In this document: positions 36,820 through 37,989 of the stretch, in pieces
Layout of the letters: every line of letters begins with the position of its first letter
How positions within the stretch are numbered: the stretch's first letter is position 1
Assembly (NCBI GenBank): GCA_032358165.1
Contig: JAALGY010000004.1
Span: 186,001-250,000 of the forward strand
Source: Diplosphaera chodatii
Taxonomy: Eukaryota > Chlorophyta > Trebouxiophyceae > Prasiolales > Stichococcaceae
Length of the DNA stretch: 64,000 bases
Direction of reading: 5' to 3'
Position numbers and translations under genes: made by a program
The notes under the pieces: model-generated
The model's input: only the letters and a program-made list of their open reading frames with translations
Database searches by the model: none
Told to the model about the DNA's origin: nothing

Positions 36820-37094
36820 GCTGGCAAGGGTCAGCAAATGGCGTCCGGGCAGCGCAGCATCATCGCAGCTGACAGACCGTTGTGAGCAAGCATGGCCGAC
36901 TGTTGTGTATGTGGGTGCCTGGAAATACGACAGTGTGCAATAGGCATCATGTGTGTCCGGTATGTACTACAGGGGTGCCTGTGCTGGAGGGCGGAATCCT
37001 GATGTCCCTGATGCAAACTTTGTTACGTTTCACACGACCGCCTGTGAGATGGAATCATGAGACGCAAGGCATCGGCTTGTGCAAAAACTATCTG
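36820..37094. other. Upstream region of TRM112 and tRNA 3' flank
   Basis: Short gap between the TRM112 start codon and the tRNA-Pro gene. It includes the T-run that should end tRNA transcription at 37083-37087. No other feature is seen. Confidence 0.5.
37083..37087 (-). terminator. RNA polymerase III terminator of the permuted tRNA
   Basis: On the minus strand a run of five T follows the 5' half of the permuted tRNA-Pro by seven bases. This is a standard RNA polymerase III stop and supports transcription through the whole permuted unit. Confidence 0.75.
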
Positions 37095-37188
37095 CCCTAA
37101 GCGAGAATCATACCACTAGACCAATCACCCTGCACATAGTTTTGGGGTGATCCGCGAATTGAACGCGGGACCTCTCGCACGTTAGAGA
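37091..37188 (-). other. Bulge-helix-bulge splice motif of permuted pre-tRNA
   Basis: In the minus-strand transcript the leader (37179-37188) pairs with the trailer (37091-37100). The order is: anticodon stem CTCGC/GCGAG, a 3-base bulge CGT (37181-37179), a 4-bp helix TTAG/CTAA, a 3-base bulge GGC (37096-37094), then AGA/TCT. This is the canonical 3-4-3 motif cut by tRNA splicing endonuclease. Cutting each bulge after its second base leaves the loop TTAGGG plus T, exactly seven bases. Confidence 0.88.
37095..37179 (-). tRNA. Circularly permuted tRNA-Pro (anticodon AGG)
   Basis: The 3' half comes first in the transcript (37179 down to 37144), then a 13-base linker (37143-37131), then the 5' half (37130 down to 37095). 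The 3' half holds anticodon-stem strand GCGAG, variable loop AGGTC, a perfect T arm CCGCG-TTCAATT-CGCGG, acceptor strand ATCACCC and discriminator C. The 5' half holds acceptor GGGTGAT, D arm GGTCTAGTGGTATGAT, stem CTCGC and loop TTAGGG. The acceptor strands pair fully, and the ligated RNA is 72 bases with anticodon AGG, as in eukaryotic tRNA-Pro. The gene joins at position 37/38, the usual intron site. A TATA-like stretch lies near 37243-37249 upstream. Permuted tRNAs are known from Cyanidioschyzon, prasinophytes and chlorarachniophyte nucleomorphs. Confidence 0.93.
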
Positions 37189-37989
37189 AATTTTCTCTGG
37201 GAGGCATCCAGCAGGAGTTGCAGCAGCGATTTCTCGTGCATTAGTATATCAGTAACGCCGCTTTGCCACAAATTCAGCGGACGGCCACCTGTTTCGGATC
37301 CAAGTGGTATCAAGCACTCAACAGTGCACCTTTTGGGACACAAACCGCCTTCACATCACATCTTCAGATGTTTGTTCACCTGGACAAGCGGCGGAGGGGC
37401 CACGGCATGTGCTATAGACCGACTTGTTCCCGCGTGTTCGAACGGCGGGGATGCGGCGGATGAGGCTTGGCGGCGATTGCTGTGTGGGTGTTCACGGAGG
37501 CGATGGCATTACGCGACTGAGCCTAGACGGGACATACAAAGGTGCGTAAAATTGATGTGGTTGTTTCATCATTCTGATATTCATACACAACTGGAGTGGT
37601 TGTGACAGGAGCGTGTTGACACTGGGTGTAACCACAGTGGCAATCGTCCTGCTGTATCGTCAGGTCTCACCATGGAGCACCGACGCCTCACATGCAATGC
37701 GTACCCAACAACATGTTTCAACAGTAGCAAGTGACGCAACAGACGAGAGTAGGCCGCAAACCACGTAAAGCGCACGAAACACTCGACCAGTTCCTGAGAT
37801 GCAACAATGTCATCCCGCAGAAGGGAAGAAACAAACACACACCATACGAGCGCAGCTGCTACCAAACAAATGATGTTGCCACAGCGGCAGGCCAGCAGGT
37901 CCACTGCTCATGTGCCTTGATGTACACCTGATCACAGTCGGATGCTGCCACAGTGACGATAGTTGCAACATCGAGCTGTTGGTACCATC
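37180..37989. other. Region between permuted tRNA and wall-protein gene A
   Basis: About 800 bases upstream of the tRNA and downstream of gene A. An inverted repeat AGAGAAA/TTTCTCT sits at 37185-37199 directly beside the tRNA leader. The rest shows no coding exon. Confidence 0.5.

Follow-up and report, generated by a model that had tools for sequence, protein, structure and literature searches.

A predicted circularly permuted nuclear tRNA-Pro(AGG) gene in the green alga Diplosphaera chodatii

Results

Organization of the permuted tRNA-Pro(AGG) unit

The window, that is, the whole 64,000-nucleotide stretch of contig C3 analyzed here, very probably carries a nuclear tRNA-Pro(AGG) gene whose two halves stand in circularly permuted order, and its RNA is predicted from the sequence to mature through a cut at a bulge-helix-bulge (BHB) and a circular RNA. 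This reading, which the first-pass annotation had put forward, was supported by ARAGORN run on the circularized unit and by a counterpart on contig C10 in which the mature tRNA is the same. The features of the unit are the following.

37095..37179, minus strand: permuted tRNA-Pro(AGG) unit made of 3' half, linker, and 5' half (C3:223095-223179 of genome G000), found with the R1 model and with ARAGORN on the circle
37144..37179, minus strand: 3' half, tRNA positions 38-73, 36 bases, CCA not encoded
37131..37143, minus strand: linker of 13 bases, AAAACTATGTGCA, that connects the acceptor strands; no T run longer than 1
37095..37130, minus strand: 5' half, tRNA positions 1-37, 36 bases
37096..37098, minus strand: anticodon AGG, positions 34-36
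37182..37185, minus strand: CTAA, leader strand of the 4-bp central BHB helix
37097..37100, minus strand: TTAG (positions 32-35), partner strand of the central BHB helix
37179..37181, minus strand: 3-base bulge CG^T, with the cut before base 38 predicted from BHB geometry
37094..37096, minus strand: 3-base bulge GG^C, with the cut after base 37 predicted from BHB geometry
37186..37188, minus strand: TCT, leader strand of the outer BHB helix
37091..37093, minus strand: AGA, trailer strand of the outer BHB helix
37083..37087, minus strand: TTTTT, predicted RNA polymerase III terminator, at +8
37245..37248, minus strand: TATA-like motif, a candidate promoter element by motif match, 69 bases upstream of the unit

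On the minus strand, the 3' half reads TGCGAGAGGTCCCGCGTTCAATTCGCGGATCACCCC (37179-37144) and the 5' half GGGTGATTGGTCTAGTGGTATGATTCTCGCTTAGGG (37130-37095). Joined as 5' plus 3', they give a 72-base tRNA-Pro(AGG) without an encoded CCA, with an acceptor stem of 7 bp (GGGTGAT/ATCACCC), a T stem of 5 bp (CCGCG/CGCGG), and an anticodon stem of 5 bp. Inspection by eye found T8, G15:C48, G18G19, T33, and the TTC of the T loop, the conserved residues listed in a review of permuted tRNA genes (PMC3978253). The order is that of a type II (37/38) permuted gene, with 36 + 13 + 36 bases and the 3' half first on a single strand; a TATA-like motif lies at -69, TTTTT at +8, and the linker, with its T run of 1, holds no terminator.

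The leader end (TCT-CTAA-CG^T) and the passage from the 5' half into the trailer (TTAG-GG^C-AGA) form a 3-4-3 BHB, with a central helix of 4 bp (TTAG:CTAA), the bulges CGT and GGC, and an outer helix of 3 bp (AGA:TCT). Cutting both bulges behind the second base leaves exactly TTAGGGT as the loop, i.e., a split at 37/38. The first-pass annotation had described all of this, from a 3' half preceding the 5' half on the minus strand with 13 bases between them, through the 7-bp acceptor stem, the T arm, and the anticodon stem, to the 3-4-3 BHB formed by leader and trailer, the T5 terminator, and the TTAGGGT loop left by cuts after the second bulge base. Its description proved correct base for base, with every element present and the loop exact.

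An intron-containing tRNA gene is ruled out by the reverse order of the halves, and ARAGORN (intron option off) was blank in the window. Nor does the locus resemble a split (trans-spliced) tRNA encoded at separate loci: the halves lie 13 bases apart on one strand, joined by a linker without a T run of 4 or more.

Detection of permuted units and background level

Permuted units were searched for with R1, a covariance model built from tRNAs rotated at 37/38. Its training set has 22 rows, namely both permuted Pro tRNAs, AGG and TGG, and 20 nuclear or organellar tRNAs of this genome; these 20 were taken from 35 distinct tRNAs, of which the remaining 15 were omitted by choice. R1 gave a single match in the 64-kb window, at 37095-37179 on the minus strand, with 64.3 bits and an E value of 2.4e-19; because the window tRNA is itself 1 of the 22 rows, this score is partly obtained by construction and is not independent. 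The nuclear Phe and Cys units, which are absent from the training set, scored 58.1 to 63.6 bits, and the best other R1 match reached 24.5 bits among the loci scanned (42, 28, 2, and 4 new ones in four runs).

ARAGORN called the expected tRNA in 10/10 units circularized at the predicted junction and in 0/10 of the same units left linear; the window unit accordingly gave tRNA-Pro(AGG) when closed into a circle and nothing when linear. Linear scans of the whole 64-kb window returned no tRNA with ARAGORN and none with Rfam at gathering scores, as expected of a permuted gene.

Counterparts in two diverged contig sets

The genome searched comprises 85.6 Mb in 55 contigs, among which two diverged contig sets can be recognized. 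Homologous contigs are ~72-77% identical near four permuted loci, and there are in addition one plastid-like and one mitochondrion-like contig. Judged from sequence, the divergence of the two sets suggests an old hybrid or a very divergent diploid. C10 carries four tRNA loci of C3 in collinear but reversed order, namely Thr(TGT), Pro(AGG) locus 1, Pro(CGG), and a gene for Leu.

The counterpart of the window unit, at C10:2956061-2956146, encodes a mature tRNA-Pro(AGG) identical to that of the window (72/72 bases). Around this locus, a BLAST comparison of C3 with C10 aligned a 1.06-kb stretch that is only 72% identical; the linkers agree at 11/13 positions and the upstream 60 bases at 47/62 aligned columns. 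A query of 201 bases around the locus had 6 matches in the genome, all of them permuted tRNA-Pro genes, and the permuted Phe and Cys units were found with D-arm patterns followed by R1. Altogether, the genome holds 10 permuted units at 5 locus pairs, each pair spread over both contig sets.

Pro(AGG) locus 1: C3 (window) and C10
Pro(AGG) locus 2: C35 and C38
Permuted Pro(TGG): C11 and C25
Permuted Phe(GAA): C17 (L083) and C45 (L085), by D-arm pattern, then R1
Permuted Cys(GCA): C17 (L111) and C45 (L112), by D-arm pattern, then R1

That the permuted order of Pro(AGG) is not an accident of assembly follows from the C10 counterpart, which has an identical tRNA in DNA that is 72% identical. A misassembly, the doubt raised in the first-pass annotation, or a rearrangement of recent date that misordered the halves has nothing found in its favor and is left with a vanishingly small chance, as all five loci have counterparts on other contigs with different flanks and linkers and as the BHB suits the permuted order.

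The mature tRNAs of the five pairs agree at 72/72, 72/72, 72/72, 73/73, and 71/72 bases, the last value being that of Cys, in which the sole difference changes an acceptor U-G pair to C-G. The linkers agree at 11/13, 22/31, 7/9, 6/11, and 24/30 aligned columns, and the last 8 bases of the leader are the same within 5/5 pairs. In the four pairs compared with BLAST, the main aligned stretches span 1.06 to 3.1 kb at 72 to 77% identity, and in the short flanks compared for the Cys pair, 43/68 columns match upstream and 29/58 downstream. The mature tRNA and the end of the leader are thus conserved and the linker has diverged; therefore, this sequence comparison suggests that the mature tRNA and the BHB leader are under selection and that the linker is not.

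A T run of at least 4 begins +6 to +21 downstream in 10/10 units, and all 10 linkers, which range from 8 to 31 bases, are free of such runs. A scan of 66-80 upstream bases found a TATA-like motif in 7/10 units and none in the other 3. These features bear on whether the halves might be transcribed apart and joined in trans like archaeal split tRNAs. Separate halves would be served by an identical BHB, but linkers this short leave little room for a promoter, none of the ten contains a T run of 4 or more, and the halves are adjacent in all ten units, which makes joining in trans extremely improbable.

In the L111 unit (permuted Cys on C17, minus strand), the final part of the 5' half is briefly duplicated in tandem, together with the T tract, just past the 5' half; the C45 copy does not have this duplication. 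In the review's account, Ostreococcus lucimarinus has an extra 5' half beside its permuted Cys(GCA) gene (PMC3978253).

Covariation and folding of the bulge-helix-bulge

In the exact register, which is the one demanded by two 3-base bulges, bases 32-35 pair with the leader at 18/20 positions over the 5 loci (36/40 over the 10 units), with Phe and Cys contributing a mismatch each. No more than 13/20 positions (24/40 over the 10 units) paired in any of 42 other registers, and none of 100,000 shuffles attained 18 pairs. The central helix also covaries: TTAG of the AGG genes goes with CTAA or CTGA, and TTTG of the TGG genes with CAAA. The intron of Pro(CGG) follows the same covariation, with TTCG and CGAA. 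Between the permuted Pro(AGG) and Pro(TGG), the acceptor pairs 4:69, 5:68, and 7:66, each of which joins the two separated halves, are changed on both sides. The outer helix is more variable: it measures 3 bp in the window and in one member of the Cys pair, 4 bp in the C10 counterpart, and 5 bp in the other Cys unit, and it is weak or absent at the second Pro(AGG) locus, in Pro(TGG), and in Phe.

In the predicted free-energy minimum of the window precursor, the central helix and the acceptor stem are kept and the T arm is mispaired. The central helix is present in the minimum of 4/6 Pro precursors (1a, 1b, 2a, and TGG_a). Unconstrained folding gave the full cloverleaf in 0/6 Pro precursors; the complete set of four arms appeared in Phe_a and Cys_a. 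When the cloverleaf and the central helix were imposed, in a constrained fold without D stem or outer helix, the energies of the six Pro precursors exceeded the minimum by 5.7 to 17.3 kcal/mol. These modeled values for the Pro precursors argue against taking folding energies at face value.

Search for ordinary copies and an intron-bearing Pro(CGG)

The joined 72-base tRNA-Pro(AGG) had 8 half-matches in the genome, all within the four permuted AGG units, and no contiguous match. The sensitivity of this query is limited, because it missed the Pro(TGG) loci found with the 201-base query. A pattern for the Pro 5' half (28 bases, 27 specified positions, up to 3 mismatches) matched the genome at 8 places, six of them in permuted units and the other two in Pro(CGG) genes, and the reversed-pattern control had 0 matches. 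Hence, no ordinary Pro(AGG) or Pro(TGG) gene occurs among the 8 genome-wide matches of this pattern. The first-pass annotation had called for a genome search for a conventional tRNA-Pro(AGG), and none was found within the limited sensitivity of these searches; the absence rests chiefly on the 28-base pattern and, because the genome searches give lower bounds, a divergent ordinary copy may exist.

Both Pro(CGG) genes have the ordinary order and an intron.

C3:453330: Pro(CGG), ordinary order, intron (L139, G000:C3:453190-453500)
C10:2783949: Pro(CGG), ordinary order, intron (L140, G000:C10:2783806-2784116)

In each, a 32-base intron lies at 37/38, with the BHB in the same register as at the permuted loci. 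The mature Pro(CGG) differs from the permuted Pro(TGG) at 2/72 bases (70/72 the same) and from Pro(AGG) at 9/72. By eye, its intron shows no likeness to the leader or trailer of the permuted Pro(TGG) beyond the BHB. Three kinds of proline tRNA were found, of which two (AGG and TGG) are permuted; the family holds permuted and intron-bearing genes, so both forms coexist in one tRNA family.

For the other two families, D-arm patterns were used, which would miss copies with more divergent D arms. The Phe pattern had 20 matches, 7 on C54/C55 and 13 nuclear. All 13 were run with R1, 11 were read by eye, the other 2 being Lys(CTT) genes, and ARAGORN was applied to part of them; among these 13/13 nuclear matches, only the permuted pair was Phe. 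The Cys pattern had 16 matches, 4 on C54/C55 and 12 nuclear, of which 10 were examined and 2 are Thr(TGT) genes; with all 12 accounted for, only the permuted pair was Cys. Another pattern had 16 matches (1 on C55, 15 nuclear), and all 15 were checked by R1 and by eye. For a pattern with 30 matches, 5 lie on C54/C55 and 25 are nuclear, with 16 of these examined; for one with 22 matches, 1 lies on C54 and 21 are nuclear, with 9 examined. Coverage is therefore partial in these last two (16/25 and 9/21), and more permuted loci may exist. A whole-genome Rfam tRNA search returned 63 matches, many on the organelle contigs C54 and C55, without the places matched by the Trp, initiator-Met, and Arg(ACG) probes; since this census is incomplete, it was not used to argue absence.

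Several other tRNA loci were observed during these searches. At C1:1790116-1791977 (G000), 8 tRNA-Trp probe matches form a tandem array with a spacing of 227-264 bases, and one more lies on C46. Just upstream of tRNA-Leu(CAG) on both contigs (L127 and L128), a stretch that resembles a T arm and closes like the 3' end of a tRNA was seen by eye; it differs between them and is possibly a relic half gene. An intron-containing tRNA-Tyr(GTA) is intact on C27, and its C26 counterpart keeps the 5' part and has no gene called by ARAGORN (L076 vs L077). Between the counterpart tRNA genes L082 and L084 (C13 and C22), one anticodon-loop base differs, and ARAGORN calls them Val(CAC) and Met(CAT), respectively. 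On C17, L116, L117, and L118 are near-identical blocks with an intron-bearing tRNA, read as Asn by eye, with L117 called Val(GAC) by ARAGORN; 2/3 of these blocks lose the T arm and the 3' strand of the acceptor where a different sequence starts, so broken tRNA copies occur in this genome.

Such truncated copies (L116 and L118) lend some plausibility to the idea that the window holds dead tRNA fragments, pseudogenic or retroposed, that lie in reversed order by chance and go unprocessed. This is nonetheless very improbable. The mature tRNA is identical in a counterpart set in 72% identical DNA, the last 8 leader bases are conserved in 5/5 pairs, the BHB keeps its exact register over 5 loci, the acceptor and BHB pairs covary, and the genome searches found no ordinary Pro(AGG) gene. 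Circular RNAs can serve other roles, and a circular intermediate is expected here; the locus might then yield a regulatory circular or fragment RNA and not a working tRNA. The probability of this is close to negligible, since conservation bears on the full tRNA sequence rather than on the linker and since the Pro 5'-half pattern found no other Pro(AGG) gene.

Discussion

Relation to known permuted tRNA genes

Permuted tRNA genes are a known but rare class, reported from a few algae and one archaeon, of which the gene described here is a further member with a precedent among trebouxiophytes. A 2014 review tabulates 34 of them, spread over C. merolae, Ostreococcus, Micromonas, the Bigelowiella nucleomorph, and Thermofilum; its table has no Pro or Phe gene and includes Cys(GCA) in green algae (PMC3978253). 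Permuted Ser genes are described in the Amorphochlora nucleomorph (PMC4494063). The first-pass annotation knew of no report from green algae of this kind, a statement that has to be corrected: permuted tRNA genes were reported in 2025 in the trebouxiophyte Auxenochlorella UTEX 250-A (Plant Cell, PMC12636532; preprint PMC12633428). The two cases are alike in that the host is a trebouxiophyte and the permuted genes are nuclear and, as that paper recounts, were found after an ordinary scan had left the tRNA set incomplete (PMC12636532). The two hosts differ in placement. Auxenochlorella belongs to the Chlorella group, whereas D. chodatii belongs to the Prasiolales. Among the listed 120 of 1684 matches to the plastid AtpE protein of this genome, the nearest that bear a legible organism name come from Prasiolopsis (89%) and Edaphochlorella (85%), both members of the Prasiolales (Trebouxiophyceae).

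The window unit also resembles the permuted genes of the four algae of a 2010 study, as summarized in the review, which are nuclear and have mostly a 37/38 junction, a short linker (11-64 bp), and a BHB formed by leader and trailer (PMC3978253). Cys(GCA) is permuted in 3/4 of those algae (PMC3978253) and in this genome, whereas the Pro and Phe genes permuted here have no equivalent among the review's 34 (PMC3978253). The review describes green-algal junctions as hBH (PMC3978253), to which the window copy adds an outer helix of 3 bp. With Cyanidioschyzon merolae, as portrayed there, it shares the order of the halves, the BHB, a TATA-like motif upstream of most units, and a downstream T stretch (PMC3978253). 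That species is, however, a red alga with junctions at four positions and a demonstrated circular intermediate (PMC3978253), whereas the junction here is at 37/38 and the intermediate is predicted from sequence. A further comparison lies within the same genome, where Pro(CGG) (L139 and L140) has the same 37/38 site and BHB register but the ordinary order, with its 32-base intron.

Proposed processing

We propose that RNA polymerase III, using an upstream promoter, would transcribe the unit into a single RNA, which the tRNA-splicing endonuclease would cut at the BHB. Ligation of bases 37 and 38 would then yield a circular RNA, and RNase P and tRNase Z would excise the 13-base linker from this circle. 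After addition of CCA, the tRNA-Pro(AGG) would be used in the cytosol, and the cell would obtain its Pro(AGG) and Pro(TGG) tRNAs from the permuted genes alone. A circular-RNA pathway of this kind is described in the review for red and green algae on the basis of RT-PCR and sequencing (PMC3978253). The tRNA-splicing endonuclease domain PF01974 was detected above the cut-off at 2 places in the genome, on C47 and C15, with two weaker matches below it, and frame 0 of L141 reads GGDFLCYQGDP..HAQY.

Implications for the proline tRNA family

Permuted tRNA genes can escape ordinary scans, as ARAGORN and Rfam were both blank in this window, and the main proline tRNAs of this alga appear to depend on such genes. 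The most unusual feature is the near-twin pair of a permuted Pro(TGG) and an intron-bearing Pro(CGG), with 2/72 differences. The coexistence of intron-bearing and permuted Pro genes agrees with the idea of a recent origin that Soma reviews (PMC3978253).

It is slightly more probable than not that all cytosolic Pro(AGG), Pro(TGG), Phe(GAA), and Cys(GCA) tRNAs come from permuted genes via circular RNAs, while Pro(CGG), 70/72 like Pro(TGG), keeps a plain 37/38 intron. There would hence have been a recent switch between intron-bearing and permuted forms within one family, which would support a late origin from intron-bearing genes. The near-twin pair offers a concrete case for how permuted tRNA genes arise and, if this view is true, it would be direct support for permuted tRNAs having arisen late from intron-bearing ones.
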